Below are positions 80-35,392 of a stretch of 37,018 nucleotides of DNA, piece after piece (within the stretch, counting starts at the first letter, position 1; each line of letters begins with the position of its first letter). The position numbers and the translations under genes are program-made. A model generated the notes under the pieces. That model had not been told where the DNA came from. It saw nothing but the letters and a program-made list of their open reading frames with translations, and made no database searches. The DNA lies in the NCBI GenBank assembly GCA_025963485.1, contig JAOQAO010000081.1, forward strand, positions 1 through 37,018, read 5' to 3'. Source of the stretch: Bacteroidota bacterium. GTDB taxonomy: Bacteria > Bacteroidota > Bacteroidia > Chitinophagales > LD1.

Positions 80-177
80 GGATACTAGATACTGGATGCC
101 AGATGCTGGATAATACAGAATGCCGAAACGACGTCGGCTGTTTGCATTCATCCAGTATCCAGCATCCAGTATCCGAT
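80..177. repeat. Inverted heptamer repeat tract
   Basis: The left arm (80-114) reads as consecutive seven-base words GGATACT, AGATACT, GGATGCC, AGATGCT, GGATAAT. The right arm (150-177) reads ATCCAGT, ATCCAGC, ATCCAGT, ATCCGAT, which is the same word family in reverse complement. ATACTGGATG (89-98) pairs perfectly with CATCCAGTAT (163-172). The result is a long imperfect hairpin just upstream of the promoter of the first gene. A related pair lies at 1915-1993. I see no gene in bases 1-223. Confidence 0.85.
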
Positions 178-178
178 T

Positions 179-208
179 TTTGGATAGTCCGGCAAATAGT
201 TACTTTCG
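179..208 (+). promoter_or_regulatory. Bacteroidota-type promoter for the 224 lipoprotein gene
   Basis: TTTG at 179-182 is followed after 18 nt by TACTTTCG at 201-208, a close match to the Bacteroidota -33 TTTG / -7 TAnnTTTG arrangement. The start codon is 15 nt downstream of the -7 box. Inferred by pattern only. Confidence 0.5.
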
Positions 209-223
209 CACAAAATCAAATAC

Positions 224-685
224 ATGAAGAAACTATTAGTAGCAGCGGTAGCTGTGGCCCTGATCTCATTGACATCATGCGGCACCGGTGGCAGTGTATT
301 CTCAGCCGGTACCTGGTCGTACAAAGGTGTGAGCTATAATGCCTATGCAGCGACCGGAAGTACTACAGCCAAAACCCTGACTGCCTCTTATGCCAATAGC
401 AGCGAATCGGACAATGTGATCTGCTACTTCCAGACATTCCCTCCGGCAGCGGGTACATATACTGTCGTGAATACTCCGGTATCCTCGGCTAGTCAGGTGT
501 ACATGGTCATGAATATTGGCCTTAAAGGGTTCACTGTGGATGTCAGCGGTGCATCTACTGCGACAGTGACGGTAAATAGTGCAGGCAAAGTAGCAGTCAT
601 TGTGAATTCTGTGACTTTCTCCAATATCACCGGACAGACTGCGGACTCAGGACCGTTTACAGCTTCTTTTACACAGAATCTGTAA
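224..685 (+). CDS. Small exported lipoprotein, unknown function
   Basis: This 153-residue protein begins with a basic N-terminus and a hydrophobic stretch ending in the lipobox LTSC (Cys19), so it should be a lipoprotein processed by signal peptidase II. The mature part is rich in Ser, Thr, Ala and Val, with alternating patterns typical of an all-beta fold. It has no catalytic motif that I recognise. The start is supported by a TACTTTCG promoter-like box 15 nt upstream. The gene is monocistronic: it has its own promoter and a strong terminator directly downstream, and faces a convergent gene. Overlapping ORFs in other frames are shadows. It is real with high confidence, but the function is unknown. 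Confidence 0.85.
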   Translation: MKKLLVAAVAVALISLTSCGTGGSVFSAGTWSYKGVSYNAYAATGSTTAKTLTASYANSSESDNVICYFQTFPPAAGTYTVVNTPVSSASQVYMVMNIGLKGFTVDVSGASTATVTVNSAGKVAVIVNSVTFSNITGQTADSGPFTASFTQNL

Positions 686-710
686 ACAGTCGCCACGAAA
701 GAACATAAGC

Positions 711-750
711 AAAAAAGCCCTGTCTAATAGTTAGACGGGGCTTTCTGTTT
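711..750. terminator. Bidirectional intrinsic terminator
   Basis: AAAGCCCTGTCTAA / TTAGACGGGGCTTT forms a stem of about 13 bp with a three-base loop. It is flanked by A-rich sequence on the left and T-rich sequence on the right, so it can serve both the plus-strand gene ending at 685 and the minus-strand gene ending at 759. Confidence 0.85.
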
Positions 751-758
751 TATATTTC

Positions 759-989
759 TCAGGGATGGCGGCCTATCTGGAGGTTGCTGGTGCGGATCTT
801 GCTCTCGAGCTGCAGGCAGTACTCATCGACCTCCATGATATCTATGGTCACATCCTCACTATCCATAAACTCTACGAGATAGCTCCGCGGATTGGAGACG
901 TATACCTGGTGGACCAATCCCCGGGTGCCTTCGGGTATCTGAGCGTTCACATCGCTCGTCGTCATAATTATGTCCTCTTCTTCTATCAT
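759..989 (-). CDS. DUF4926-like small protein
   Basis: The 76-residue ORF resembles the DUF4926 type of small beta-barrel protein: 'IPEGTRGLVHQVY', then 'YLVEFMDSEDVTIDI', like family members that read 'G..GTVVEVY...YEVEF.D..G'. The family has no known activity. The start is uncertain. ATG at 989 or ATG 24 nt further in (965) would both work, but the protein-like reading frame continues upstream without a start codon to a stop at 1053-1055. The gene may therefore be the 3' part of a frameshifted longer gene (see the feature at 1044-1156). It shares the bidirectional terminator at 711-750. The family call is by eye and moderately confident. Confidence 0.55.
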   Translation of the reverse strand: MIEEEDIIMTTSDVNAQIPEGTRGLVHQVYVSNPRSYLVEFMDSEDVTIDIMEVDEYCLQLESKIRTSNLQIGRHP

Positions 990-1043
990 ATAGTTGTATT
1001 TGTTCTTTTCCCATTGGGGGTTCGGGAAAGCGCCAAATTCATC

Positions 1044-1156
1044 AGTGATATGTCATTGTATGCCTCGTCACCATCTGAGATATACCAAAACCACACGGGC
1101 GCATAGCAGGTGTGGGCGGCAATATCGTGGGTATGGATCGCGGCGGATATTACTTT
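1044..1156 (-). pseudogene. Possible frameshifted 5' part of the DUF4926-like gene
   Basis: The minus strand from 1156 to about 1047 reads as protein-like sequence ('HTHDIAAHTCYAPVW', 'WYISDGDEAYNDI'). It then loses coherence, while the neighbouring frame becomes protein-like ('TDEFGAFPNPQWEKNKYNYM') and runs straight into the DUF4926-like ORF. One missing base near 1044-1050 would join the two. The upstream part begins after a stop at 1157-1159 and has no ATG, so the gene appears to have lost its start as well. The rest of the 990-1374 spacer, about 220 bases beyond this remnant, shows no gene that I trust. Confidence 0.4.
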
Positions 1157-1374
1157 TTAGGGGGAGGAGGTTTGCCTATTAATACGATGGACGGAGACAA
1201 AGGTTTTATTTTTCGGTATAAGTTTAACAAGACGGATTTTGTGTTTAAGCAGAATCTCCTTTCGCTGAAACGGAATGAAGCTGGCCGGCACAAAGGGAAA
1301 CTTTGCTGGCGGACGGTTTGGTTTTGAAATGTTTTATTGTATATTGATTTTCATAACCCCAAAAACCGGACCCG

Positions 1375-1899
1375 ATGACCAGATCAGAAATAGTGACCAG
1401 ACTCAGGGAAGACCATAAGCGGTTTGCAGTAATGATCTCGTCGCAGACCGATGAGGACTTTCTCCGGGCGGCCGACGGCAAATGGTCCGCCGGGCATCAG
1501 CTGGATCATATATACCGCAGTGTCAAGCCATTGCGCACGGCGGTAAAGCTGCCGGGCTTCGTACCACGGCTGCTATTCGGCAAGGCGACACACCCCTCGC
1601 GTAGCTATGAGGAGGTAGTATCGGGATATAAGGAAAAGCTCGCCGGTGGTGGCAAGGCCAAAGGCAAATTCATACCCAAACCCGTCGAGGTCGGCCATCG
1701 CAATTCGCTGCTGATCAAGCTCACAGATACTGTAGAGTCCCTGTCTAAGAAGATAGAGAAAATGGACGAGGAGAAGCTCGATAGTGTAGTACTGCCACAT
1801 CCCCTCCTCGGCAAACTCACCCTCCGGGAGATGCTCCACTTCACCATCTACCACGTAGGCCATCATCACAAAATGACGATGAAGAACCTGGGGAAATGA
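1375..1899 (+). CDS. DinB-like family protein
   Basis: This 174-residue soluble protein has the layout of the DinB/YfiT-like four-helix bundle superfamily. An early 'W(S)AGHQLDHI' segment carries a helix-borne histidine (about residue 45). The C-terminal 'YHVGHHHKM' (about 159-167) would supply the other metal-binding histidines. Family members are stress-induced proteins or thiol-dependent transferases such as bacillithiol transferases, and many have no assigned reaction. There is no signal peptide, so it should be cytoplasmic. The start at ATG 1375 places the usual family N-terminus correctly. It stands alone between a decayed gene and a repeat-rich spacer. The superfamily is confident; the substrate is unknown. 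Confidence 0.75.
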   Translation: MTRSEIVTRLREDHKRFAVMISSQTDEDFLRAADGKWSAGHQLDHIYRSVKPLRTAVKLPGFVPRLLFGKATHPSRSYEEVVSGYKEKLAGGGKAKGKFIPKPVEVGHRNSLLIKLTDTVESLSKKIEKMDEEKLDSVVLPHPLLGKLTLREMLHFTIYHVGHHHKMTMKNLGK

Positions 1900-1914
1900 T
1901 CCTCGTTAATGGTT

Positions 1915-1993
1915 ACTGGATGCTGGTTTCTGGATAGCACAAATGGCAAGCAATAACTGTCCAGTATCAAGCATCCAGCAGCTAGTATCCAAT
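1915..1993. repeat. Second inverted heptamer repeat tract
   Basis: ACTGGAT, GCTGGTT, TCTGGAT (1915-1935) are followed by the opposite-orientation words GTCCAGT, ATCAAGC, ATCCAGC, AGCTAGT, ATCCAAT (1959-1993). The period is seven throughout, and the word family matches the tract at 80-177. It lies just after the DinB-like gene in a spacer of 238 bases. Confidence 0.8.
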
Positions 1994-2079
1994 TCAGGCT
2001 TCCGATAAACAGCCTATACCCAGTCTTGTGCAGTGAGGTCGAGAGAGAATTCATCAGGCTTTTCAACCCACTGCATTTT

Positions 2080-2111
2080 ATAAAAAGAGAAGCCTGCCTT
2101 TTGAGCAGGCT
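2080..2111 (-). terminator. Intrinsic terminator of the protease-lipoprotein cluster
   Basis: AGCCTGC (2091-2097) pairs with GCAGGCT (2105-2111) around a seven-base loop. Read on the minus strand, the stem is followed by TCTCTTTTTAT, directly after the stop of the minus-strand gene ending at 2138. Confidence 0.75.
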
Positions 2112-2137
2112 CCTTATTGGGACGGGTTGGTTATACG

Positions 2138-2659
2138 CTAAAAATAAATTTGATTATTCGATTCCAGTTGAAGCAACTCTATGGGGATTGAACCCTCACT
2201 GAGCTTTTTACCTTTCTGGTCAAACTTCTCATACATAAATGAGTCATCTTTGGTATATCCGCTAAACTGTAGAGTCCCCTGTGGAGAAAATAGCCTGGCC
2301 TGACGTATTGTGCCAAATTGATACTTGATTTCTTTTCTCAGGGTATCACGTACTTTAAACTGCCAAATGCCATCTGGTTTATTCAACTTATAGTCGCCCT
2401 CGGATCGCACTATCCCGATTAGGGTATCTCGGTTCTCTTTGGTGCGGTTTACGTCAGTAGGGCTTGTACCATGACCGAGAACTGGCGATAAGGATATGTT
2501 TACGTTTACCAGAGTATCATAACGCACCCAATGACCTGTCTTGAGACCTTTGCCGTCAAACTGATTCAATGACGACGGAGTGTCTTTTATCTTGCCCGAT
2601 GACACGCACGAGTTTAGGAATAGCAGAATAATCCCGGTAATAAAAAGTAAATTCCGCAT
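2138..2659 (-). CDS. Small lipoprotein with MORN/YwqK-like motifs
   Basis: Read from ATG 2659, the protein begins 'MRNLLFITG' and has a lipobox LNSC with Cys at residue 18. The longer ORF-track start puts about 30 charged residues ahead of the signal peptide and overlaps the upstream gene, so I reject it. The mature part has short motifs such as 'GLKTGHWVRYD', 'GDYKLNKPDGIWQFK' and 'GKKLSEG', which resemble the MORN-like repeats of YwqK-type proteins (predicted). It is the last gene of a minus-strand cluster, 22 nt after the preceding lipoprotein gene and followed by a terminator. The molecular role is unknown; it is probably anchored in the envelope. Confidence 0.75.
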   Translation of the reverse strand: MRNLLFITGIILLFLNSCVSSGKIKDTPSSLNQFDGKGLKTGHWVRYDTLVNVNISLSPVLGHGTSPTDVNRTKENRDTLIGIVRSEGDYKLNKPDGIWQFKVRDTLRKEIKYQFGTIRQARLFSPQGTLQFSGYTKDDSFMYEKFDQKGKKLSEGSIPIELLQLESNNQIYF

Positions 2660-2681
2660 ACCTTTTCGAATGTAGATATTT

Positions 2682-3110
2682 TTATCGCTGAATGCCATTG
2701 TTAGGCGATACACCATTTTCGATTTTGGTCTCAAAAAAAGTATGGTCACAGATGCCGTCTTTAGAAAAAGTGATGTTTAAGAACATTTCATTACACTTCA
2801 ATTGCGGTGGGCATTTACCTAATTTGTATTCAAAACTTACCGGACTTTCCCGAAGATCTGGCGAACCCAATACGGATTTCACCTTATTGGAATCAAACCC
2901 CACCAAAACATCGAACGTAACCCTGTTCTGGGAAACAAAACTGTCAATGAGTGGTTGCTCCATACGATGCATCTTATGCGCCGCATCATAACGGAAGTTC
3001 TCCTTAATAAATGCAAGCTTTTTAGATACGGATGCATTGCCCTGTTTAGAGGCAATGCATCCTATCAATACTAGTGGAATAAAAAGTAATCCAAGCTTAA
3101 TGCTATTCAT
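2682..3110 (-). CDS. Small lipoprotein, possibly BamE/SmpA-like fold
   Basis: The start is taken at ATG 3110 ('MNSIKLGLLF'), which gives a clean signal peptide ending near Cys18 (LIGC). The ORF-track start adds nine unlikely residues. This ATG overlaps the stop of the protease gene by eight bases (ATGAATAG), suggesting translational coupling. The mature part contains 'NKVKSVLGSPD' and later 'LNITFSKDGIC', a pattern loosely like BamE/SmpA-type lipoproteins ('V...LG.P...' then a beta-strand pair), but this is a weak match. There are four cysteines in the mature part besides the lipidated one. The function is unknown. Confidence 0.75.
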   Translation of the reverse strand: MNSIKLGLLFIPLVLIGCIASKQGNASVSKKLAFIKENFRYDAAHKMHRMEQPLIDSFVSQNRVTFDVLVGFDSNKVKSVLGSPDLRESPVSFEYKLGKCPPQLKCNEMFLNITFSKDGICDHTFFETKIENGVSPNNGIQR

Positions 3111-5574: not shown

Positions 5575-5736
5575 GGTTAAAATTGTGAGTTAAAAAATTA
5601 GATGATACGAATGTTAAATTGTTATTTGTATATTCCTATACCCATAAAAGGGTATGGTTCTTAACATGTAGAAAATATTAAATGGCGGCACTAAGCACAA
5701 TACATAGTGCCACCAGAGAGCTTGGGCATCTCCGTC

Positions 5737-6192
5737 TTAGTGGGTTACTGAAATCTTTTGAGTTGAGGTAAACCCATTTGCACTTGTTTGGAGTACATAA
5801 ATGCCGCTTTGTAGATTAGCGACGCTGCATGTTTTTGTATTTTTATCACTCGATATAAGAGCATCGTTAGACAGTACTGTTTTACCGAGCATGTCGGTAA
5901 TAGAGAATGCCACATCGTTTTGCACACCATCATAAATCACTGTTAGGTTATCGGATGCGGGATTGGGATATACTGAAATGTCTGATGGCTGTAGGTTTTC
6001 GATCCCTGTACTTAGTCTTTCGCCCACATATGCATTCCTTACCTCCAATGTTCCTGTGCCTGGAAATACTGAATTAAACTCTAGCTGGATATGGTTATAC
6101 CAAGGGAGTGGGAATGAAAGCGTCGTCCATTTTATACCGGGCAGTCATGAGGGACGCCCTGTCAGAGTGAGATTGACCCTGCCGATGTGCAT
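5737..6192 (-). pseudogene. Remnant of a T9SS cargo gene (sorting domain only)
   Basis: The open part below 6048 encodes a complete T9SS type A sorting domain ('ISVYPNPASDN', 'ITDMLGKTV', 'GIYVLQTSANG'). The ORF-track start at 6048 is a TTG inside continuous coding-like sequence. The frame continues upstream through 'LEFNSVFPGTGTLEV' to an in-frame TGA at 6145-6147. Beyond it, in the same frame, there is more protein-like sequence starting at ATG 6192 ('MHIGRVNLTLTG'). No signal peptide or catalytic domain remains. It is most simply the 3' end of a large secreted-protein gene that has lost its front half and gained a stop. Confidence 0.6.
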
Positions 6193-6303: not shown

Positions 6304-7746
6304 TTATTTTGTAACGGCGAAGCGCACAGTTTCGTTGGCCGAACCGTGCTTCACAGTGAGTGTGTAGAGTCCTGCGGGCTGAGCGCTCATGTCGATGAGC
6401 ATATGGTCAGCAGAGATCACCTGCTGGTGTACAGTGCGGCCTACGGCGTCATATATCTCATAGCGGTCACCTGTCCTGCCTGTGGTCTGCAGCGTGAGCA
6501 GTCCCTCAGTAGGATTAGGATAGACGCCTACGATCATATTGCCATTGATGTCATTGATACCGACATTGACTACAGACGTGGCGGCAGATAGCGCACCGCA
6601 GCCGTTAGCGCCTACCACGTAGACGGTATAGTTGCCATTGGCAGTGACGGTAAGCGTTGCGTTGGTCTCACTATTGAGCTGTACACCATTGGCGAACCAC
6701 TGGTACGATGTGCCCGCACTCGACGTGAGGACAAATCCTACGCGCGTAATAGTAGGTGTAGTAGCAGGTTTGACGACGAGCGATACTGCATTGGAAACGG
6801 CAGTGCACTGATTGACATCAGTGACGGTGACCGTATAGCTGCCCGAGGCAGTGACATATACGGTCTGGGTAGTAGCGGCTGTATTGCTCCAGGCATAGCT
6901 GAGGCCAGCAGGTGTAGCTGTCAGCGTCGCTGTATCTCCCTGGCAGATACTGTCAGGTCCCACAGGCGAGACGGAGACGGTAGGCAGATTGACCAGTGTG
7001 ATCACGGTAGGCGATGATACTGCGCTGTCAAGGGCAGCATTGTATACGGTCACTACATATGATCCGGCAGCATTGACAGAGACCGACTGCGTGGTGGCGC
7101 CGGTAGACCATTTATATGTATAGCCTGTACCCGAAGAGGCAGTGAGTGTCTGTGATGATCCGCTGCAGAGGTTGATATTGCCCGCAGGGCTGATAGCTGC
7201 TGTCGGCGGGCCTACACAGGCTGCATATGCTTCATAAGCCGGGTACGGTGACGCAGTATCCAGTGTGGTACATGCGACAGTCGGGCACTTAGTGCGGATC
7301 CAGTACCTGAGGCCGCTCTGCGCGGCATTTTGATTTGGCAGTGTGCCTATACCGGTGAGAGTGACGTCTACGATGATGCGCAGTTGGTATTGTCCCACAG
7401 GTCCTGTAGGGGTGCCTGATACGACGATCACGCCTGCTGCACCGCCTGCAAATGTATTATTGGCTGCATTGGTAGTCCAGCAGAGTCCGGGAGGGAGATT
7501 ACTGATGGTGTCTATTTTCAGTGACTGTACGGGCAAGCTTTGTACAGTAGTGAAGTTCTGGAAATAAATAGTGTCAATGACAGGTACGCCGATGACAGTG
7601 CATGGGAGATTCTCCGGATAAGGCTGGAGGCCAGGTGATCCGAAAGGGACAGGTGTAACACTATTGGTCGCAGCTGCGCAGTGCTGTGCCTGTGCGCCTG
7701 CCGCCATGAGAGTGACCGCTAAAAAAGAAAGTAAGATTTTTTTCAT
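6304..7746 (-). CDS. T9SS cargo protein with Ig/PKD-like modules (paralogue A)
   Basis: The 480-residue protein has a signal peptide ending 'AGAQAQ'. After an N-terminal domain of about 190 residues come three similar beta modules, each with a 'Y.W.ttGATTQSV.V...GSYVVTVY' core (roughly residues 195-240, 270-320 and 335-390), like PKD/Ig-like adhesin repeats. A T9SS type A sorting domain closes it ('VGVYPNPTEG', 'GLYTLTVKH'). It should be exported across the outer membrane as a surface or matrix protein. No enzyme motif is visible. It is clearly a paralogue of the adjacent gene at 7931-9391 (same architecture, near-identical C-terminal phrases), probably from tandem duplication. It is followed by a strong terminator. 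Confidence 0.85.
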   Translation of the reverse strand: MKKILLSFLAVTLMAAGAQAQHCAAATNSVTPVPFGSPGLQPYPENLPCTVIGVPVIDTIYFQNFTTVQSLPVQSLKIDTISNLPPGLCWTTNAANNTFAGGAAGVIVVSGTPTGPVGQYQLRIIVDVTLTGIGTLPNQNAAQSGLRYWIRTKCPTVACTTLDTASPYPAYEAYAACVGPPTAAISPAGNINLCSGSSQTLTASSGTGYTYKWSTGATTQSVSVNAAGSYVVTVYNAALDSAVSSPTVITLVNLPTVSVSPVGPDSICQGDTATLTATPAGLSYAWSNTAATTQTVYVTASGSYTVTVTDVNQCTAVSNAVSLVVKPATTPTITRVGFVLTSSAGTSYQWFANGVQLNSETNATLTVTANGNYTVYVVGANGCGALSAATSVVNVGINDINGNMIVGVYPNPTEGLLTLQTTGRTGDRYEIYDAVGRTVHQQVISADHMLIDMSAQPAGLYTLTVKHGSANETVRFAVTK

Positions 7747-10486: not shown

Positions 10487-10519
10487 AACCCTCAAAGGGT
10501 TTCAAACCCTTTGAGGGTT
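10487..10519. repeat. Perfect 33-base palindromic element between convergent genes
   Basis: AACCCTCAAAGGGTTT and AAACCCTTTGAGGGTT are exact 16-base inverted copies around a single C. Each arm itself contains a smaller palindrome (AACCCTCAAAGGGTT). There is no long T tract, so it is not a textbook terminator, although its place between two converging stops would suit transcription ends or a REP-like role. Confidence 0.85.
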
Positions 10520-12892: not shown

Positions 12893-13309
12893 ATGAAGAA
12901 GATACTCGTACTATGTACCGGCAATAGCTGCCGCAGCCAGATAGCAGAGGGCTACCTAAAACACTATGCAGGTGACCGCGCGGAAGTGTATAGCGCGGGC
13001 ATCGAGGCACACGGTATCAATCCCCGCGCCATAGCGGTGATGCGAGAGGACGGCATAGATATATCCGCACATACATCAGACGTGATGGATCGCTACCTCG
13101 GTGTAGGCTTTGACTACGTGATCACCGTCTGCGACAATGCGCGTGAGCGCTGTCCTTACTTCCCTTCCTCAGCACAACAGCTTCATCACAACTTCCCCGA
13201 TCCGGCGAAAGCACAAGGCACGGAAGAAGAGATCATGCAGGAGTTTCGCCGGGTGAGGGATATGATCAAAGCTTACTGCGAGAGTTTTGTGGGAGAAAAC
13301 TTAAAGTGA
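12893..13309 (+). CDS. arsC: Thioredoxin-coupled arsenate reductase
   Basis: The 138-residue protein is of the low-molecular-weight phosphatase type: P-loop 'CTGNSCRS' (Cys8, Arg14), Cys80 and Cys87 in 'VCDNARERCP', and Asp103 in 'PDPAKA'. These match the three redox cysteines and general acid of the Staphylococcus pI258-type ArsC, which uses thioredoxin. It reduces arsenate to arsenite, the substrate for ArsM and for the neighbouring channel. The start codon is two bases after the arsM stop, so the two are surely co-transcribed. A terminator-like hairpin follows. Confidence 0.93.
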   Translation: MKKILVLCTGNSCRSQIAEGYLKHYAGDRAEVYSAGIEAHGINPRAIAVMREDGIDISAHTSDVMDRYLGVGFDYVITVCDNARERCPYFPSSAQQLHHNFPDPAKAQGTEEEIMQEFRRVRDMIKAYCESFVGENLK

Positions 13310-13327
13310 ACAGTAAATCAGGAATAT

Positions 13328-13374
13328 AGGAAATCGGGTAATACAGATCGACTGTTTTCCGGATTTCCTTTTTA
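13328..13374 (+). terminator. Terminator-like hairpin after arsC
   Basis: AGGAAATCGGG pairs with CCGGATTTCCT (one mismatch) and is followed by TTTTT. The left arm lies in a period-8 repeat (GGAATATA, GGAAATCG, GGTAATAC). The word AATCGGGTAATACA recurs exactly at 34037-34050. It separates arsC from the channel gene. Confidence 0.6.
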
Positions 13375-13388
13375 CTCCTGAAAAAAAT

Positions 13389-17541: not shown

Positions 17542-17583
17542 TCTATGACAATGGATACTTCATAAATCATAAATAACAACGCC

Positions 17584-17997
17584 ATGCTAAGAGAAAATAA
17601 CAGTGACCACCACAGCATTCCACATTACTATGTTTATCCGGGCCTGGGCACGGTGAGCGTGCGTACAGTGCAGAGCTGCTATTCACCCGAGGAGCGGATG
17701 GACTTTATCATGAAAGTCATCAAACAGGAGTTTGAGAAACGCTTTGTACTCGATGAGGAGAAGATGTATAACGGCTCCCGGGAGATGCCGCATGCATTGG
17801 CACGTATGTGTTTTTATTATTTCACCCGGAAGCAATGCCCTACGCTGACGCTGCATGAGATAGCCCGTGCGTTCCCCGCTTTGCGCCAGCATCATACTAC
17901 ACTGCTGCATGCCTTTCATGCCATTCAGAATATGATCGACACCAGAGATTCAATGTATTATGATGCGATCATGGCTATCGACGAAAAATTAAGGTGA
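17584..17997 (+). CDS. Orphan DnaA domain IV-like DNA-binding protein
   Basis: This 137-residue protein has no AAA+ ATPase domain. Residues about 66-120 resemble domain IV of DnaA: a helix with 'ALARMCFYYFTRKQ', 'LTLHEIARAFPA' matching the 'LSLPEIGR.FGG' segment, then 'HHTTLLHAFHAIQ' matching the DnaA-box-reading signature 'RDHTTVLHACRKI'. The signature Asp is replaced by His. The N-terminal 60 residues are unlike DnaA. It might bind DnaA-box-like sites as a regulator or replication modulator. It has its own leader with hairpins. I am fairly confident of the fold resemblance and have no evidence for the role. Confidence 0.68.
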   Translation: MLRENNSDHHSIPHYYVYPGLGTVSVRTVQSCYSPEERMDFIMKVIKQEFEKRFVLDEEKMYNGSREMPHALARMCFYYFTRKQCPTLTLHEIARAFPALRQHHTTLLHAFHAIQNMIDTRDSMYYDAIMAIDEKLR

Positions 17998-22243: not shown

Positions 22244-23212
22244 ATGGATCCCAGTCAGATCTGCGACATGATCACCACCAACCGGGAGTACATCAAGCTC
22301 AAAAGCAATATCGCCTTGCAAAACCTTGCCATGCTCCACCGGAGTTTTGACCATGTAGAGGATGATGCCTGTATACTGGGCCTGATGCTCAATGACAGTA
22401 TGGCGGCGCTGATATTTAGTGCGGATTATGCGGGTAGCATTGCGATCTCACAGCGCGCCATCGACCGGTTCCAGGATACCAGAGAGAAATACCTCATAGC
22501 AAATCACGAGTCAGTGCTGGGCCGCTGCTATACATTTACTCTCAAATATGCTGAGGGCCGGGATTACCTGCTGATGGCTGAGGCCAATGCCTTGGGGTTG
22601 GAGCTGACTGATGAGGTCAGAGCATTGCTGGGAGATATCCTGCACGACCTGGCAATGAATAACCATCATGCAGGTGGCGATACAGAGGAGTCTATCTCTT
22701 ATCTTGACCGCGCACTTGCCGTCCTGGAGCCGACCTCCATGCGTACACGCAAAGGTGTCTGCCTGATGGGCAAAGGCAATGTGCGGTTCAATGGACAAAG
22801 GATAGAGGAGGCGCTGGTCTTTTATAAAGAAGCGGAAGCATTTTTTGAAGGTACGGAGAGCATGAGCAATCTCTCTGCGATACTGTGCAATATAGGTATG
22901 AGCTACACCAATCTCGGACGCCTCGATGAAGCTGAGCCATATCTCATGCGCGCATTGGAGCTAAGAATACGGCTGGGCAGCTACTGGGAGATAGCCAACA
23001 GCTACTACAATATATCTGACTACTATAGAGCCAGAAACGAGATAGACAGGGCATATGATCAAATGCTCCAGGCGCGGGACTATGCGCTCGTCAGCCAGAC
23101 CCGCGGACTCAAGCTACTCATACTCGGTGAACTCGAAACCATGGCACTCGCTATGGGCAATGCCGATGCTGCGGCTGAGCACCACAAGCAATATCTGGAG
23201 CTGGATCATTGA
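22244..23212 (+). CDS. Cytoplasmic TPR protein, copy 3 of a tandem triplet
   Basis: The third paralogue, 322 residues, starts 'MDPSQICDMITTNREYIKLKSN'. Shared landmarks are 'LMLNDSMAALIFSADYAGSIAIS' (copies 1 and 2 have close versions), 'LGRCYTFTLKYAEGRDYLLMAEA', 'LHDLAMNNHHA' (nearly identical in copy 2) and 'GSYWEIANSYYNIS'. It begins 57 nt after copy 2, close enough for one transcript. It faces the convergent SanA-like gene. No output domain is present. As for the other copies, a scaffold or titration role is possible, but nothing in the sequence shows it. Confidence 0.8.
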   Translation: MDPSQICDMITTNREYIKLKSNIALQNLAMLHRSFDHVEDDACILGLMLNDSMAALIFSADYAGSIAISQRAIDRFQDTREKYLIANHESVLGRCYTFTLKYAEGRDYLLMAEANALGLELTDEVRALLGDILHDLAMNNHHAGGDTEESISYLDRALAVLEPTSMRTRKGVCLMGKGNVRFNGQRIEEALVFYKEAEAFFEGTESMSNLSAILCNIGMSYTNLGRLDEAEPYLMRALELRIRLGSYWEIANSYYNISDYYRARNEIDRAYDQMLQARDYALVSQTRGLKLLILGELETMALAMGNADAAAEHHKQYLELDH

Positions 23213-23292
23213 TATTTAGCAGGCTGGATCTTTGATTGCCATGGCTAGAGATGAAAGGGAAGATGCCGTATTTTATTAGATCCGATAATGGA

Positions 23293-23931
23293 CTAACCGA
23301 TCACTATTTTCCTGCCAAGGTATCTGGGCTCTTTACCTGTCAGCTGGTCTACAAATACCTTGACGCGCGCCAAACGCTCACGCATCCTCGTGCGAAGGCC
23401 GGCACGGCGTGATACATCGCGTGCGTTGAAAGCGATGGCGGAGATACCTATCTGTGAAGCGATATAAAGTGCGCGCTCATTATGCCATGACTGGGAGATG
23501 ACTGTGACCGAGTCCTGCCCGAAAACTTCTTTGGCCCTTTTCATCGAGTCAAAGGTACGGAAGCCTGCATAGTCCGGATAGATGCGCGTGGAGTCCACGC
23601 CCTCCGCTATCAGGTCCTCCCGCATTTGAGTAGACTCGTCGTACTCCCGGCGGCCATTGTCACCGCTTACGATGAGGTAGCTGATCTTGCCGCTTTTCAT
23701 CAGTGCGGCAGCGGCCTGTATACGGTACGTATAGTAGCGGTTCTCGTATTTGTTCCTGATATATTTATTGGTCCCCAGGAGGATGCCAGTACGGCGGTAC
23801 GGAATGCTGTCGGTATTTGAATATAATTTTCCGCTGGCAGCGGCGACGACCTTATGATTGCAGACGATGAGTGCCGATGCTGATAAAATAATAAGGAGGA
23901 GGATAGCAATGGCTAAAAGTTTTCTGCGCAT
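23293..23931 (-). CDS. SanA/YdcF-like DUF218 membrane-anchored protein
   Basis: The 212-residue protein has one N-terminal transmembrane helix ('LLAIAILLLIILSASALIV') and a DUF218 domain outside. The family blocks are visible: 'RTGILLGTNKYI', 'YRIQAAAALMKSGKISYLIVSGDNG', 'EGVDSTRIYPDYAGFRTFDSMKRA' and 'VTVISQSWHNERALYIA'. E. coli SanA affects outer-membrane barrier function (vancomycin sensitivity at high temperature). The biochemical activity is not established. The ATG at 23931 gives the proper basic start of the anchor helix. It is monocistronic, divergent from the regulator at 24121. Confidence 0.85.
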   Translation of the reverse strand: MRRKLLAIAILLLIILSASALIVCNHKVVAAASGKLYSNTDSIPYRRTGILLGTNKYIRNKYENRYYTYRIQAAAALMKSGKISYLIVSGDNGRREYDESTQMREDLIAEGVDSTRIYPDYAGFRTFDSMKRAKEVFGQDSVTVISQSWHNERALYIASQIGISAIAFNARDVSRRAGLRTRMRERLARVKVFVDQLTGKEPRYLGRKIVIG

Positions 23932-27445: not shown

Positions 27446-27470
27446 TGTGCCGAAAGTAATTGTTATTTAT

Positions 27471-27552
27471 GATTTTTGATTTATGGTTTATGATTGGAAT
27501 ACAATTGGCAATCGGACGTCTGCGAAATCATAAACCATAAATCATATATCAT
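27471..27552. repeat. Heptamer inverted repeat with 19-bp perfect stem
   Basis: GATTTTT, GATTTAT, GGTTTAT, GATTGGA (27471-27498) face AAATCAT, AAACCAT, AAATCAT, ATATCAT (27525-27552). TGATTTATGGTTTATGATT (27477-27495) is the exact reverse complement of AATCATAAACCATAAATCA (27526-27544), with a 30-base loop. It lies between the divergent SDR and DUF1304 genes and so could be transcribed in either leader. Confidence 0.85.
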
Positions 27553-27593
27553 AAATGGATTCTCATTATCTTGTCTCCACTAAACCAAAACTC

Positions 27594-27956: not shown

Positions 27957-27967
27957 TTTGTATTCTC

Positions 27968-27995
27968 TTACTACTTACTACTCACTACTAAATAC
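27968..27995. repeat. Period-7 tract before ppk2
   Basis: TTACTAC, TTACTAC, TCACTAC, TAAATAC in tandem, then TACTCATG, whose ATG is the ppk2 start codon. It fills most of the 44-base gap. Confidence 0.8.
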
Positions 27996-28000
27996 TACTC

Positions 28001-28885
28001 ATGGATATCGACTGGAAAAAATACCGCATCACATCGGGCAAGGATTTTAAAATATCGAAGTTCTCTACGCATGCACCGGTGAAGCGGCCCTCAGATCAGG
28101 TGCTCCTGGAGGAAGAGAAGAAATACAAGAACGCGATAGCCTCCATACAGTATAAGCTCTACGCAGAAAACAGGCAATCCATGCTCATCGTGCTGCAAGG
28201 CATGGACAGTTCGGGCAAAGACAGCCTCGTGCGCCATATTATGAACGGCGTCAATCCGCAGGGTCTGCAGGTGTATAGCTTCAAGCACCCGACATCGCTG
28301 GAGCTGGAGCACAGCTACCTGTGGAGGCACTATCTCAAACTGCCCGAGCATGGACAGATCACGATATTCAACCGCTCACACTACGAGAATGTCCTTATCG
28401 CAAAGGTACACCCCGAGATCGTGCTCGCGGAGCATGTGCCGGGTATCGACTCGGTGAAAAAGGTCAATGATAAATTCTGGAAGCAGCGCTACCACCAGAT
28501 CAATAACTTCGAAGATGTGATCACGCAGAACGGTACGCGCATTGTGAAATTCTTCCTCCACCTCTCGCGCGATGAGCAGCGCAGACGTTTCCTGGAGAGG
28601 CTGGAGAATAAGGAGAAGCACTGGAAATTTTCCTCCGATGATATCAAGGAGAGGGAATACTGGGATGAGTACCAGCAGGCATATCAGGATGCGATCAGGC
28701 ACACGAGCCAGGACAAAACGCCCTGGTATGTGATCCCTGCAGATGACAAATGGTTCACGCATATGCTGTGTGGCGAGATCATCCAGCATGAGCTGGAAAA
28801 AATGAATCCGTCCTTCCCGGCGATAGATAAGACCGAACTGGAGATGATGCATCAGGCCAAGATCAGCCTGGAGAAAGGCAAGTGA
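28001..28885 (+). CDS. ppk2: Polyphosphate kinase 2 family phosphotransferase
   Basis: The 294-residue cytoplasmic protein has the P-loop 'GMDSSGKD' (67-74), Walker B 'IFNRSHYE' (122-129) and the lid segment with 'RRRFLERL', all standard in the PPK2 family. These enzymes transfer phosphate between polyphosphate and nucleotides (AMP, ADP or GDP, depending on class). With one domain and this length it could be class I or III, which I cannot tell by eye. The GH76 gene follows after six bases on the same strand, so they probably share a transcript even though their roles look unrelated. Confidence 0.88.
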   Translation: MDIDWKKYRITSGKDFKISKFSTHAPVKRPSDQVLLEEEKKYKNAIASIQYKLYAENRQSMLIVLQGMDSSGKDSLVRHIMNGVNPQGLQVYSFKHPTSLELEHSYLWRHYLKLPEHGQITIFNRSHYENVLIAKVHPEIVLAEHVPGIDSVKKVNDKFWKQRYHQINNFEDVITQNGTRIVKFFLHLSRDEQRRRFLERLENKEKHWKFSSDDIKEREYWDEYQQAYQDAIRHTSQDKTPWYVIPADDKWFTHMLCGEIIQHELEKMNPSFPAIDKTELEMMHQAKISLEKGK

Positions 28886-28891
28886 GTGCGT

Positions 28892-29950: not shown

Positions 29951-29993
29951 GGGACGAAGGCGGGGGTGAATTATCGCTATAAAGTGACTTTTT

Positions 29994-30392: not shown

Positions 30393-30679
30393 GGGCAGGA
30401 ATTCTGCTACAAGGTATAATATCTACAGGAAGGTGTCGTCATTGATCCATCAATTTTTTGTGATCGCAGGTATTGGTTTGGTAGGTGTTTTCATGACATA
30501 TGATATGCTATTCGGGCCAATTTGGCCTTTGTCATATAAAGCAACTACCGGTTCGCGGGTGGTATAGAATTCATAAAAAAAGTTCGTTTTTGACAATTTG
30601 ACTTTTATCTTAGAGGAATGGATACCCTGTATAGGGCATCCAGTGCTGTTCGTTTTCGTAAACCCAAAACCTCAAAATC

Positions 30680-32329
30680 ATGAATCGTTTCCACTACTTA
30701 ACTGTGCTGTGCGTTGTGCTTCTTATTATGGCTGGTTGCAAAAAGGAGAGTAAAACAAATTCCAATAATGGCAGTCACTCATCCGGATACAATTTCGGCA
30801 CAGAGAATGTCGCCACTGTACCCAAGGTGCTCAATACCCGGAACCTCGGCGCTACCAATGCTACCCTGCCTTCTTCGTATTTTCTGTATAACTACCTGCC
30901 GCCTATAGGTGACCAGGGCCAGTACGGTACCTGTATCGGATGGTCCACTGCATATTATACTAAAACTGCGCTGGAGGCGGTAGCAAATAGTTATAGCACT
31001 GCGCAGCTCGCCAGTGCGGATCATCAGATGAGTGCCAAAGATCTGTTTACCGCCATAGCGGACAATCAGAAAGGCGCCAACTGTGACGGTACCAACTATG
31101 ATGCGGCGCTGACTGTGATGCAGACGAGGGGCGTGGCATCGCTGACCAGTGTACCGTATACCAATCTGGGCAGCTGCTCGCAGTCCGGATCGTCTGGCAG
31201 CACTGATGCCGGCAATCACAAAATAGTTTCATACAGAGCGCTGCAGGACCAGACAGTGGCGCAGTATGTCGCTGATGTCAAGCAGAGCCTCGTCAATAAT
31301 CAGCCGGTCATGGTCGGTGTGGGAGAAGGCCCGGGTTTCCAGAATTGGACCGGCACAGGTGTCATGACCGCAGGGTTTGATCCGTGCGGTGGTGGCAATC
31401 CATGCGGAGGTCATGCACAGACCATCGTGGGCTATGATGATAGCAAAGGTGCAGGCGGCGCATTCCGGGTGATCAACTCATGGAATACTACCTGGGGCGA
31501 TAATGGTTACTACTGGGTGGACTACAACTTTATGTTTAATACCCTCGCTCTGAAAGACAATTCCGGAGCGTATTCTATTTTCGTCGCTTCAAACTCGACA
31601 TCGACAGATACGACAACCCCCAATCCTAATCAGACCCCTACTACCGGTGTGGATCTCGCACCATGGGTGGAGAGCGATGTGAATACTGCAACCGGATCCA
31701 TACCGACCAGGCAGGCTGTTTACAACGTCTACAATCTCGGTACAGGTACAGCAAGTGCCTCGACTCCATGGGGGTTATATTATGTTTATTACAATGCCTA
31801 TAACGCAAATGACTATGGTGTGATATTCCATGACGATTTTGACCGTAACGTATCTACCTTTCAGTGCAGTACTACGATCAATTATTGCGAATTCAACCTT
31901 GATATTCCTTCCTCAGGTGATTTTGCTACGCAGGCATTCGGTACGCCTACCCTTTATCAGAACTATACCATGCCCAACATTACTGGCTACTACTACCTGA
32001 TGATCGTGGCAGATGCCGGAGGCGTACTCGGAGATGCGGATTATGACAATAACATTTTCTACGTCAACTATGACCCTATATATTTCACCAATGGTTTTTA
32101 CAAGACGGGAGGATCTTCCGTTCCTGACTTTAATAATAACCTAAGCCCGGAAAAGCAAGTGCTTAAAAAGAATGTATACAATACTGCTGTGACCAACAAG
32201 CATCCTAATGCTTATTCTCCGCGTGAGATCAGGACATTCCTGAAAGCTAAAAAGGCCAGCGGCGAGCTCGACGCAAAGGTAAGGGAACAGCAAACTATAA
32301 ACGGCGGCGCAGTGGGCGGTCATCATTGA
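30680..32329 (+). CDS. Papain-family (C1A) cysteine protease lipoprotein
   Basis: This 549-residue protein is an exported lipoprotein (lipobox 'MAGC', Cys20). Residues about 70-300 are a papain-like domain. Gln79 and Cys85 lie in 'GDQGQYGTCIGW', six apart as in papain's oxyanion Gln and nucleophile. His245 is in 'CGGHAQTIVGYDD' and Asn267 in 'VINSWNTTWGDNGYYWVDY'. The protein starts directly with the short spacer before the catalytic domain and seems to lack a long inhibitory propeptide. The C-terminal about 230 residues are a beta-rich region ('VDLAPWVESDVN', 'NFYYVNYDPIYF'-like), possibly a CARDB-type binding domain. It should act on the cell surface or in the periplasm. Confidence 0.85.
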   Translation: MNRFHYLTVLCVVLLIMAGCKKESKTNSNNGSHSSGYNFGTENVATVPKVLNTRNLGATNATLPSSYFLYNYLPPIGDQGQYGTCIGWSTAYYTKTALEAVANSYSTAQLASADHQMSAKDLFTAIADNQKGANCDGTNYDAALTVMQTRGVASLTSVPYTNLGSCSQSGSSGSTDAGNHKIVSYRALQDQTVAQYVADVKQSLVNNQPVMVGVGEGPGFQNWTGTGVMTAGFDPCGGGNPCGGHAQTIVGYDDSKGAGGAFRVINSWNTTWGDNGYYWVDYNFMFNTLALKDNSGAYSIFVASNSTSTDTTTPNPNQTPTTGVDLAPWVESDVNTATGSIPTRQAVYNVYNLGTGTASASTPWGLYYVYYNAYNANDYGVIFHDDFDRNVSTFQCSTTINYCEFNLDIPSSGDFATQAFGTPTLYQNYTMPNITGYYYLMIVADAGGVLGDADYDNNIFYVNYDPIYFTNGFYKTGGSSVPDFNNNLSPEKQVLKKNVYNTAVTNKHPNAYSPREIRTFLKAKKASGELDAKVREQQTINGGAVGGHH

Positions 32330-32443
32330 TAGTATTTCCGTAGCCTGCAAAATATATACAGGTCAGTGGCAGAAACTAAGTATTTTGGCACTGGCCTGTT
32401 TTGATAAATTACAATTGATAAAACTATTTTTCAAACCCATTCT

Positions 32444-33373
32444 ATGCATATGTTCACCCGTCTCATCATCTGTTTTGCTTTCTGCTTTTCGTTTTACTCC
32501 TGCTCATCTATCGGGGACCAGAAGGTCAGCAGCGAAAAGCTCCGGGCGCATCTGAGTCTTGGAGAGGATGTTTCTTATAAGGGTTACACGATCACAGGAG
32601 ACTTTGACCTGATAGATACCGGGCATGCTGTAGCGGTCTCTCCGGTCATCAGCGATGTGTATATCCGGTCAGCTATCGTATTCAGAAACTGCACCTTCAA
32701 AGGTAAGCTGATGGCCTCCCGGCGGACTGGCGCGCAGGGTTATACCGCTACATTTGGCCGGACCATCTTCTTTGAGGATTGCGTGTTTGACGATGAGGTC
32801 AACTTCGAAGGCGCCACAGTCAATGGCATCTGCAACTTCCTCAAATGCACCTTCAAAAAAGGAGGCCTTTTCAACCGGGCTACGTTCAATGGGATGGCGT
32901 CATTTACCAACTGCGCCTTTATGGAGGATGCGGGTTTTCAGCAGTGCAGTTTTGCGGGCAATAGCTATTTCAATGAATCGCATTTCTACAGGGCAGGATT
33001 TTTTCAGAACTCTTACTTCTACCGGGAGTTTACATTCAACATGGTCAATTGTGATGGCTATATGGATTTCTCGCTGGCCAGTTTTTATTCGATAGCAAAT
33101 TGCAATTATGCCCATTTTAAAAAGAATGCAGTATTCAATGATGCCAGCTTTCGCGGCAAAACGCAGTTTGTGGGATCCGAATTCGTCCGGGCGGAATATG
33201 AAGGCTGCTTATTTTATTCCCGCAGCAATTTTGACAAATCAACTTTCAGCGAGAGCCTGACTCTGAAGGATGCTAAATTCCTATCCTCCAGGCCTCAGAC
33301 CACAGGCTACAAAGCCAGCAAGCTCGATATCAGCGGCGCTGAGGTAAGCGGCGCGAAGATGACAGAGTTCTAA
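32444..33373 (+). CDS. Pentapeptide-repeat-like lipoprotein
   Basis: This 309-residue protein has a signal peptide ending in 'FYSC' (Cys20), a relaxed lipobox. Residues about 75-290 are tandem five-residue-type coils with central aromatic or hydrophobic residues: 'FRNCTFKGKL', 'FEDCVFDDEVNFEGA', 'FLKCTFKKGGLFNRATF' and 'FNDASFRGKTQFVGSEF'. This fits a right-handed quadrilateral beta-helix of the pentapeptide repeat family, here Phe/Cys-rich. Cytosolic members can mimic DNA (gyrase), but this one is exported, so that role is unlikely. A second start six bases on (MFTRLI) is equally possible. Function unknown. Confidence 0.82.
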   Translation: MHMFTRLIICFAFCFSFYSCSSIGDQKVSSEKLRAHLSLGEDVSYKGYTITGDFDLIDTGHAVAVSPVISDVYIRSAIVFRNCTFKGKLMASRRTGAQGYTATFGRTIFFEDCVFDDEVNFEGATVNGICNFLKCTFKKGGLFNRATFNGMASFTNCAFMEDAGFQQCSFAGNSYFNESHFYRAGFFQNSYFYREFTFNMVNCDGYMDFSLASFYSIANCNYAHFKKNAVFNDASFRGKTQFVGSEFVRAEYEGCLFYSRSNFDKSTFSESLTLKDAKFLSSRPQTTGYKASKLDISGAEVSGAKMTEF

Positions 33374-33462
33374 GATTTCGGATGTTGGATTTGGGATTTC
33401 GGGCGATTGGGAATTTTGTGTATTCACTATTCTCTACTCTTTAGTATCTATTCCCTATTTCA
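33374..33462. repeat. Two period-7 tracts before the 33477 gene
   Basis: GATTTCG, GATGTTG, GATTTGG, GATTTCG (33374-33401) are followed by TATTCAC, TATTCTC, TACTCTT, TAGTATC, TATTCCC, TATTTCA (33421-33462). The first is purine-rich and the second pyrimidine-rich on the same strand. Together they fill almost the whole 103-base spacer. Confidence 0.8.
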
Positions 33463-33463
33463 C

Positions 33464-33471
33464 TACCTTTA
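33464..33471 (+). promoter_or_regulatory. TACCTTTA box adjoining the 33477 start codon
   Basis: TACCTTTA is identical to the box before the 18478 gene, but it ends only five bases before the ATG. If it works as a -7 element the mRNA would be leaderless; otherwise it is chance within the repeat tract. Confidence 0.3.
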
Positions 33472-33476
33472 CTGCC

Positions 33477-34001
33477 ATGCAAGCCTCCACTGTCAATGAG
33501 CTGAAAAAAGAGCTCACGCATCTCACACCCAAAGAACTCATCGAGCTATGTACGCGCCTCGCGCGGTTCAAGAAAGAGAATAAGGAACTGCTGACCTACC
33601 TGCTGTTTGAAGCACATGATGAGCGCGCCTTTGTGGTGAGTGTGAAAGCGCATATAGACGAGGAGATAGATGCCATACCAAAAGACAATAACCTTTACCT
33701 CATCAAAAAGTCCCTGCGCAAGATACTGCGCACAGTGTCAAAGTATATACGATTCTCCGGAAATAAGATCACGGAGATAGAACTGCTCATCCACTACCTG
33801 ACAGCGATCAAAGACTCCGGCATCCCCATACACAAAAGCCAGGTCCTGACGAATCTCTATGAGATGCAGCTCAAGAAGATCAATAAGGTGCTGCCTACCC
33901 TACACGAAGATCAACAGTACGACTATGGCAAGCTGATAGAAGAGCTAAAAGTGCATGCTGATAAAGGACTGCTGAGTTCATTCTTTAAGAAGCTGAGGTG
34001 A
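33477..34001 (+). CDS. Helical hypothetical protein
   Basis: The 174-residue soluble protein is almost entirely alpha-helical and Lys/Glu-rich: 'ELKKELTHLTPKELIELCTRLARFKKENKELLTYLLFEA' forms a long helical N-terminus, then 'YLIKKSLRKILRTVSKYI', and it ends 'SSFFKKLR'. I do not recognise a named domain. Repeat-rich spacers flank it on both sides (period 7 upstream, period 8 downstream). A housekeeping or structural role is possible; nothing shows it. Confidence 0.72.
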   Translation: MQASTVNELKKELTHLTPKELIELCTRLARFKKENKELLTYLLFEAHDERAFVVSVKAHIDEEIDAIPKDNNLYLIKKSLRKILRTVSKYIRFSGNKITEIELLIHYLTAIKDSGIPIHKSQVLTNLYEMQLKKINKVLPTLHEDQQYDYGKLIEELKVHADKGLLSSFFKKLR

Positions 34002-34012
34002 TGATTTGTGGC

Positions 34013-34052
34013 GATCGGGAAATCGGGAATACAGGGAATCGGGTAATACAAG
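34013..34052. repeat. Period-8 tract between convergent genes
   Basis: GATCGGGA, AATCGGGA, ATACAGGG, AATCGGGT, AATACAAG in tandem. AATCGGGTAATACA within it also occurs at 13332-13345 after arsC. Confidence 0.8.
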
Positions 34053-34072
34053 GTATGGTTTAAGCCCGATCA

Positions 34073-35320
34073 TCAGGTTTCCGGATCAGTCGATAACTTT
34101 TTAATATTGCCCGCGATCACATTTTTCTCCGCGGTGGTCTTGGCGAGGCTCAGTGCAGTTTGATAATGCTCCAGCGCCTTTGCATTATCGATATCGGTAT
34201 ATAGGTTTCCGAGGAGGGTATGGTAAAGGTGGTAATCTGCGAGTTGCTTCAGCTTTTCAGCTTCGGTGATGGCCTCCATTTTATGGTTGGCCTTGGAGAG
34301 GGCGTAGGTGCGGTTGAGCGCCGCGATGGGGGAGTACTCGATGAGCAGGAGGCGGTTGTATAGTTGCAGGATGCTTTCCCACTTTTCTTTGGTATCCGTT
34401 TTCTGTGTGTGCCAGTAGGCGATAGCAGCTTCGATGTGATATTTTGTAAGTTGTTTTTGCGGCTCGGCGAGGCGCATGTACTCTATACCTTTCATGATCA
34501 GCTCCTGGTCCCAGAGTTTCTCGTCCTGCTCTTCGTAGAGGATGATGTCGCCCTTTTGGTCCGTGCGCGCTTCAAAGCGCGATGCGTGGAAGCACATCAG
34601 CGACAACAGCGCATTTGCCGGAGGCGTATCGGTCTGCGCGTTCTGCGTGAGCAGCAGGCAGAGGCGCATAGCCTCGACACAGAGGTCCTTACGGAGTGTG
34701 GTGTTTTGCGATGAGGAGTAGTAGCCTTCGCTGAAAAGTAAATATAGTGTCCTGAGCACATTCTCCATGCGGGCATTTATTTCTGCCAGTGCAGGGAGCT
34801 CTATTTTTATGTTGTCGTTTCGCAGTTTTTCTTTTGCGCGTGCCAGGCGTTTGTAGATCGTTTCTTTATTGGTGAGGAAAGCATCTGCTATCTCCTCCAC
34901 ACCAAATCCGCAAAGGATATTCAGCGCGAGCCCTATCTGGGCTTCGCTCGATATATCCGGGTGGCAGGTGGCAAACATCATCTGCAGCTGGCTGTCATTG
35001 ATATTCTGGTGAGAGAGGTCTATCTCCATATCGGAGGCACTGTGCGCGGCTTGTTTTACCTCGACAGAGATTTTATCAGAGAAGTTTTTATTGCGCCGCA
35101 GTGCATCTATTGCTTTGTTTTTCGCAACGCGATATAGCCATGCGGTGGGATTAGGCGGGAGGCCTTTGATAGGCCATGACTCTGATGCGAGCAGGAAGGT
35201 ATCGCTCACGATATCCTCTGCCATCTCTATATGCCCGATACCAAAGAGCCGGCAGAGCACGGAGACGATCTTGCCGTATTCTGTGCGGAATAGATGGGGG
35301 ATGAGCTCGGTCTGCTGCAT
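34073..35320 (-). CDS. ECF42-type RNA polymerase sigma factor
   Basis: The 415-residue protein has an ECF sigma core: region 2 at about 10-80 ('MAEDIVSDTFLLASESW...GLPPNPTAWLYRVAKNKAIDALRR') and region 4 at about 110-165 ('IADAFLTNKETIYKRLARAKEKLR'). A long helical C-terminal extension with 'LNRTYALSKANHKMEAITEAE' and 'HTLLGNLYTDIDNAKALEHYQ' (TPR-like) follows. This architecture, plus a neighbouring DGPF/YCII gene, is the ECF42 group, which lacks an anti-sigma factor and is thought to be controlled by its own C-terminal domain. It directs transcription of unknown targets, probably including the DGPF gene. A terminator separates the two genes. Confidence 0.9.
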   Translation of the reverse strand: MQQTELIPHLFRTEYGKIVSVLCRLFGIGHIEMAEDIVSDTFLLASESWPIKGLPPNPTAWLYRVAKNKAIDALRRNKNFSDKISVEVKQAAHSASDMEIDLSHQNINDSQLQMMFATCHPDISSEAQIGLALNILCGFGVEEIADAFLTNKETIYKRLARAKEKLRNDNIKIELPALAEINARMENVLRTLYLLFSEGYYSSSQNTTLRKDLCVEAMRLCLLLTQNAQTDTPPANALLSLMCFHASRFEARTDQKGDIILYEEQDEKLWDQELIMKGIEYMRLAEPQKQLTKYHIEAAIAYWHTQKTDTKEKWESILQLYNRLLLIEYSPIAALNRTYALSKANHKMEAITEAEKLKQLADYHLYHTLLGNLYTDIDNAKALEHYQTALSLAKTTAEKNVIAGNIKKLSTDPET

Positions 35321-35347
35321 GATTATGTTAGGAAATTAATACAAGCA

Positions 35348-35392
35348 CACGGATGACACGGATAAAACTGATTTAATGGATAAAGGATAAAT
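35348..35392. repeat. Period-9 tract upstream of the sigma factor gene
   Basis: CACGGATGA, CACGGATAA, AACTGATTT, AATGGATAA, AGGATAAAT in tandem. ACACGG at its start can pair with CCGTGT at 35408-35413. It lies 28 bases upstream of the sigma factor start codon. Confidence 0.7.

Follow-up and report, generated by a model that had tools for sequence, protein, structure and literature searches.

Degenerate tandem-word tracts in Bacteroidota spacers as probable ends of small IVS-like mobile elements

Tandem-word loci of the window

We analysed a 37,018-nt stretch of DNA (hereafter the window), the complete contig C92 of a draft metagenome-assembled genome (MAG; 279 contigs, 4.5 Mb) from an uncultured Bacteroidota lineage, for the short tandem words in its intergenic spacers and for their relation to genes of the IVP/S23 family (PF05635). 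A first-pass annotation had listed spacer tracts that keep a period of 7, 8 or 9 nt. All of the listed loci were present, with a lag identity of 0.51-0.86 across the seven period-7 loci, and the tracts proved to be real and confined to spacers.

Three of the spacers that had been read as single long tracts (80-177, 1915-1993 and 27471-27552) are instead hairpins with arms of 24-31 nt. At 81-174, the word ATCCAGT forms arms at 81-111 and 150-174 around a core reading AATACAG...CTGTTTGCATT, and both the fold (-48.9 kcal/mol, z -8.7) and the dispersed word family point to a gene-less mini-element. A second candidate with the same word lies at 1912-1989, between the ends of two convergent genes, with inverted arms and a fold z of -4.5. 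The third, of the AATCATA family, occupies 27460-27556 between divergent genes, where arms at 27460-27495 and 27525-27556 enclose GGAATACAATTGG...; its 31-nt arms are 94% complementary (fold z -5.9), and it was absent at the orthologous spacer of the congeners. The structural role suggested earlier for such spacers fits the strong RNA or DNA hairpin at these loci, and Rfam models matched neither the window nor the mini-elements.

Most of the other loci resemble single ends. A mini-element or end of the CCCGATTTCCTGTATTCC family (8/9 nt) lies at 13318-13382, flush with the stop codon of the gene at 12893-13309 (fold z -4.8), and its word family is that of an IVP element on contig C99, where the IVP gene (L106:7428-7796) has the same words and a CTGTATT leader. 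Another end of this family, on the minus strand with an AATACAA leader, is found at 34013-34054, flush with the stop of 33477-34001; the lag 8-9 identity is about 0.5-0.56 at both loci (13322 and 34013). The tract reported at 17559-17572 has only two word copies, yet its word is that of the tract at 27471, and the tandem repeat finder and the word family delimit a short AATCATA solo end at 17559-17578 on the plus strand, just 5' of the ATG at 17584. At 27957-27997, a plus-strand solo end composed of TTTGTATTCT and a CTTACTA tract stops 3 nt before the ATG of a PPK2-like gene at 28001 and shares its word with the IVP element of C2 (L010:14565-15023). The neighbouring tracts at 33374-33401 and 33421-33462 were both confirmed, as two different words in one spacer: the former is a minus-strand solo end of the CCGAAAT family (33374-33402), flush with the stop of 32444-33373, and the latter a plus-strand solo end that precedes the gene at 33477 and has the word TATTCAC/TATTCTC. 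This second word recurs 54 nt after the IVP gene on contig C7 (IVP 23182-23481; tract C7:23535-23560). Finally, a period-9 candidate mini-element with the word ATCCGTGTC and partly inverted ends lies at 35346-35415 (lag-9 identity 0.58, from 35348; fold z -2.0), and its word is that of a GxxExxY element on contig C1 (L009).

Periodicity, dispersion and polarity of the tracts

The periodicity was examined in 1.30 Mb of the assembly, which yielded 810 spacers (121.9 kb), with spacer borders set by a simple open-reading-frame rule and no trained gene finder; the own-genome sequence used later grew to 1.77 Mb. In the intergenic autocorrelation, a check that had been named beforehand, matches exceeded dinucleotide shuffles at lag 7 (z = 12.7), lag 14 (z = 4.6) and lag 21 (z = 4.6), and the lag-7 excess was absent from coding DNA. 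The spacers also showed an excess at lags 2-6 and 9, which low complexity and undetected coding DNA (period 3) partly explain, so that tract counts provide a cleaner test than the lag excess. We counted 46 period-7 tracts with a score of at least 10, against 0.8 expected from shuffles and 1.3 in an equal amount of coding DNA. At the same score, there were nine period-8 tracts against 1.1 expected, six period-9 tracts against 0.8, and 0-3 tracts for each of the periods 4-6 and 10-13. The outcome that would have refuted the first-pass observation therefore did not occur.

The first-pass annotation had further held that each locus uses its own word, and that the period rather than the sequence is conserved. 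Neither statement was borne out, since the words recur genome-wide as a few dispersed families (CTWAATA, AATCATA, AATCCGA, ACTTAAA, GTCTAAT, ATCCAGT and the 8/9-nt CCCGATTTCCTGTATTC are examples) with tracts of about 30 nt, or four units, in conserved unit order, and three species share some identical copies. For the CTWAATA words, the units run CTWAATA-CTWAATA-CTAACTA-CTWAATA, with TAACTAC nearly always as the third unit. In orthologous spacers of the window's genus, the word differs (L120 versus L184 and L198), or both word and orientation differ (L009 versus L195). The spacers also contain a dispersed repeat of about 50 nt, TTCTTCCCTCTCC..GGAGAGGGAAGATGCCGAAGGCAGATGGGTGAGG, seen in L109, L060, L023 and others, which holds the most enriched 8-mers of all spacers.

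The tracts are polar. TGTATT stands at one tract edge in 42 of 84 tracts, compared with 5.6% of random spacer positions, and periodicity was found 3' of [TC]TGTATT in 17% of cases, versus 2.5% on the 5' side. The outer ends are near-flush with start or stop codons. Among 54 strong cases, the neighbouring gene on the tract side tends to start or stop about 30-40 nt from the motif (24 starts, 25 stops), whereas distances on the other side scatter over 0-190 nt and more. The overall distribution of [TC]TGTATT has the same peak at 30-40 nt on the tract side only, from start and stop codons alike. Furthermore, tracts that share a word occur as pairs pointing outward on either side of a core, and many form long hairpins. 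This two-sided asymmetry would be explained if the leader side is the inside of an element.

Genes between inverted tracts

The assembly contains eight PF05635 genes, four of which (L010, L101, L106 and L110) were read with their flanks; those on C7 and C258 were judged from coordinates only, and those on C201 and C68 lie outside the sequence read. All four genes read matched the PF05635/TIGR02436 profiles (Pfam/NCBIfam) above the curated cut-off, with E values of 7.5e-40 to 6.3e-15 and 2GSC and 2RLD as the nearest solved structures, and all four have inverted tracts on both sides, with a different word for each gene. In L101, for example, the core gene encodes a 117-residue PF05635 protein, with AATACAA 1 nt past its stop and TTGTATT against its start. 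By coordinates, AATCATA tracts at 6121-6151 (minus) and 6584-6621 (plus) likewise surround the IVP gene at 6229-6528 of C258. An inverted-flank score of at least 25 was reached by just 21 of 1414 own-genome genes, and the four IVP genes scored 28-42 (p about 5e-8); several of the other 17 are small mobile-type genes (GxxExxY, DUF559, RAYT).

We also compared relatives, namely Bacteroidetes MAGs including SZAS-59 and UBA1941, and the IVP orthologues in these two were again situated between inverted tracts. CTWAATA tracts flank an IVP gene in two other species, one of them in another genus (G006:C11 and G020:C23). Of 61 genomes, nine encode an IVP with 62% or more identity to that of C2, and these carry 15-45 CTWAATA matches, versus 0-11 in the other 52 (Fisher 6e-11, or 7e-8 within the family, both inflated by shared ancestry). 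Matches number 0 and 4 in two congeners that lack the cognate IVP; in the sister genus, they number 15-28 in the four genomes that have it and 0-5 in the rest. None of the IVP copies read sits inside a 23S rRNA gene; all lie between protein-coding genes.

In addition, IVP genes of plasmids, mostly cyanobacterial, and of viral contigs were gathered through protein similarity alone, so that their flanks were unselected. Four redundant copies occurred in the viral-contig set, and near-identical ones were removed, with some kinship left among the loci; no IVP match was found in the phage collection. Across 29 IVP loci from the own genome, relatives, plasmids and viral contigs (five from this lineage), 27 had a lag-7 identity of at least 0.7 or inverted flanks scoring at least 24, and 20 had terminal inverted repeats that could pair into a long stem (score at least 24); the best flank period was 7 in 20 and 8 in 6. 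IVP genes of Nostoc, Calothrix and Anabaena plasmids have heptamers on their flanks, and the words across the set include GGGAGTA (Nostoc edaphicum), GGGAACA (Nostoc C052), GTGTAGG (Calothrix) and CGTTCAA (a viral contig). Of the 33 and 19 genes on two plasmids, IVP had the best inverted flanks in each case, and control genes there seldom reached the values of the IVP loci. On cyanobacterial plasmids, the IVP gene also occurs within CRISPR operons (L200, L205 and L211), twice at cas6/cas4 and once at cmr2/cmr3.

Filled and empty versions of otherwise identical sites were found on cyanobacterial plasmids; closer to the window, the orthologous SDR-gene spacers of eleven relatives were too diverged for an exact empty site. 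Trichormus variabilis plasmid C carries such an element, and plasmids of Nostoc linckia and Tolypothrix lack both the gene and the heptamers, with flanks about 98% identical. In PCC 7003, an element lies between cmr2 and cmr3, and PCC 7002 has none; this pair, which MAFFT misaligned, and the Nostoc TraM site are empty or altered sites whose junctions are not clean. GTAAT was present on both sides of one site, as a target-site duplication would be, but this is a single case of 5 nt in an A/T-rich context and too little to establish one. Three Nostoc plasmids carry mini-elements (L232-L234; 170-200 nt) that have the ends of such elements and no gene, and the one at L234:401-860, ended by heptamers, interrupts a four-helix-bundle gene.

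The period of 9 is met around a different gene. At all five GxxExxY (PF13366) loci (three own-genome, one Persicobacter and one Gemmatirosa), the best flank period was 9, as at L009:10268-10675, where the gene lies between ACACGGATAACACAGAT and ATCCGTGTTGATCCGTGT. This part is weaker than that on IVP, with five loci, three of which have a lag-9 identity of only 0.63-0.68. GxxExxY scans of viral contigs found nothing. Two DUF559 nuclease-like genes (L116:7620-8006 and L088:7176-7610) stand near inverted CCCCCTTT-type repeats, the latter also preceded by TTTGTATT, and are perhaps a third gene class with the same layout. A small GIY-YIG-like gene (L010:12048-12365, with orthologues in L188 and L192) has imperfect inverted CGAAGCAATCTTCAACTT flanks.

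Interpretation and relation to known systems

These observations suggest that the tracts are probably the ends of small mobile elements resembling intervening sequences (IVSs), together with their gene-less derivatives. The anatomy, the pairing of gene and word, the dispersion, the empty plasmid sites, the mini-element inside another IVP gene and the whole-word length changes were all observed. Several findings weigh against it. The [TC]TGTATT leader is missing from half of the tracts, and the window words ATCCAGT and CCGAAAT have no cognate gene found in the assembly, of which the IVP genes on C201 and C68 were outside the sequence read. The flanks are not inverted at the Persicobacter locus L239, nor at the Pseudanabaena locus L200, where long AAAGCTA / AAAGCCA arrays on either side of the IVP gene share one orientation, an exception to the plan. 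No recombinase or polymerase activity is known for IVP. Moreover, solo ends are as frequent as pairs, and some of them hardly differ among three species, which suggests retention for function or homogenisation rather than decay alone. Indeed, at L010:10637-10676 and in L188 and L192, TTGTATTCGT and four heptamers are identical over about 40 nt in three species with a coding identity of about 82%, a conservation that seems stronger than expected of a dead element end.

The same conserved leader and tract would suit cis-regulation, in which TTGTATT would act as a promoter element and a regulator would bind the tract as an unstructured 5' leader, as proposed for Beggiatoaceae TAACTGA; a translational role has been put forward there (PMC4679880), and many tracts stop 3-6 nt before a start codon. 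However, tracts abut the stops of facing genes as often as starts (25 versus 24), the motif peaks 30-40 nt from both, no consistent Bacteroidota TAnnTTTG box precedes the motif by eye, and the inverted partner and the gene in between are left unexplained. We therefore regard cis-regulation as an improbable general account, although a secondary role as gene leader or trailer is possible for some solo ends. The promoter reading of TTGTATT was dropped on this equal abutment, and ideas of Rho sites and mRNA circularisation, drawn from spacing and complementarity, were set aside; the orientation relative to transcription varies.

Replication slippage, which had been offered as an origin, would have chance 7-mers grow and shrink by whole units like microsatellites, with no element behind them. 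Whole-word length changes between relatives were indeed observed, as 14-nt and 7-nt indels between the SZAS-59 and UBA1941 loci (L190 versus L193), an array is expanded in G006:C12, and heptamer number varies among Coxiella strains (PMC4990558). Slippage alone nevertheless leaves unexplained the strand polarity, the common [TC]TGTATT with its fixed position as leader, the inverted partners and the cognate gene in the middle; the excess lies at 7, then 8 and 9, and not at 4, 5, 6 or 10-13, the families are dispersed with a fixed order of variant units, and heptamers are wholly missing from empty sites. As a complete explanation, it is very improbable. The same low probability applies to the IVP genes being passengers that insert into, or are trapped by, pre-existing and independent arrays. 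Arrays without IVP do far outnumber those with it, and heptamers occur near some other cyanobacterial plasmid genes, 22% of 50 control genes reaching a lag-7 identity of at least 0.7. Yet heptamers and gene are missing together at empty sites, the two flanks are inverted, the word copy number follows the cognate IVP over the 61 genomes, and gene-less hairpins share the two-armed plan.

Among the known systems closest to the proposed elements is the IVS of 23S rRNA with an S23/IVP gene in Leptospira and Coxiella, which shares the protein family (PF05635, TIGR02436) and terminal inverted repeats in a long stem. In Coxiella, tandem heptamers of strain-variable number precede the S23 gene, RNase III cuts the stem at the heptamers, and the IVS is reported to be excised from the transcript through RNase III without religation; the authors cite older work in which IVSs were proposed to be relics of transposition or of mobile elements (PMC4990558). 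Unlike these, the elements here lie in spacers between protein genes; a single genome has several word families, and gene-less copies and solo ends are numerous. The likeness to cyanobacterial short tandemly repeated repetitive (STRR) heptamers, first drawn from the period, now extends to a common associated gene family through the heptamers of the Nostoc, Calothrix and Anabaena plasmids. The tracts share the tandem 7-nt units, the intergenic and dispersed location and the whole-unit length changes of STRR and TAACTGA repeats (PMC4679880). Those repeats, however, have been described so far without an associated gene or element and with regulatory or unknown roles proposed, and TAACTGA itself is not among the IVP-flanking words found here. 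The view that no such repeats had been described for this group needs a caveat, as TAACTGA heptamers were reported in five Bacteroidetes (PMC4679880). In the open-access literature, with subscription papers and preprints outside the search, we found the Coxiella heptamers and no paper drawing a general link between heptamers and gene.

Repetitive extragenic palindromic sequences (REP/REPIN) with RAYT are similar in having two inverted ends, a cognate gene per family, and many non-autonomous pairs and solo ends. They differ in that the inner gene here is no transposase of known chemistry, being PF05635 or PF13366 and not Y1 (PF01797), and the ends are degenerate tandem words rather than a tagged short palindrome. 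The genome has seven PF01797 matches, but RAYT was rejected as the mobilising gene because the one RAYT read (L124) is flanked by a different palindrome. The window holds a perfect palindrome, AACCCTCAAAGGGTTT A AAACCCTTTGAGGGTT, at 10487-10519, which matches those on either side of this RAYT gene (L124:7886-8482), a REP/RAYT pair. Avd of diversity-generating retroelements has the same fold family as IVP, and the L010 IVP matched the NCBIfam Avd model weakly (E 1.7e-5, below the cut-off); unlike in those retroelements, no associated reverse transcriptase or template/variable repeat was seen beside the IVP genes.

In the proposed organisation, a full element would read inverted tract - AATACAA - gene - TTGTATT - tract, with tracts of about 30 nt. 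The inner gene would encode the four-helix-bundle IVP/S23 in families with words of 7 or 8 nt and a GxxExxY nuclease-like protein in those with words of 9 nt, and every family would have a gene of its own. The hairpins at 80-177, 1912-1989 and 27460-27556 would be gene-less derivatives and the single tracts solo ends. Such elements may persist in spacers, against start and stop codons, because genes themselves would not tolerate an insertion. By analogy with Coxiella, the two arms would pair in the transcript and be cut by an RNase III-like enzyme, and since the arms could be cut out there, a copy between two genes would do little harm. The IVP protein may recognise its own word and help the element to copy itself, possibly via RNA and a reverse transcriptase acting in trans, an RNA route being plausible from the kinship of IVP and Avd.

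It is also fairly likely that the elements form a superfamily of very small bacterial mobile elements with degenerate tandem-word ends, in which the class of the single inner gene sets the word length (7-8 nt for IVP, 9 nt for GxxExxY), and that gene-less offspring make up much of the heptamer load of Bacteroidota and Cyanobacteria. Heptameric tandem repeats in cyanobacteria and Bacteroidetes are without an agreed origin, and those of cyanobacteria have been unexplained for decades; the element reading would account for this class of repeats. S23/IVP and GxxExxY, for their part, are abundant protein families of unclear role. The link between word and gene merges both puzzles into one testable hypothesis, in which protein and word are partners in a mobile element, and the words may serve as probes for full elements, recent insertions and the copying machinery.

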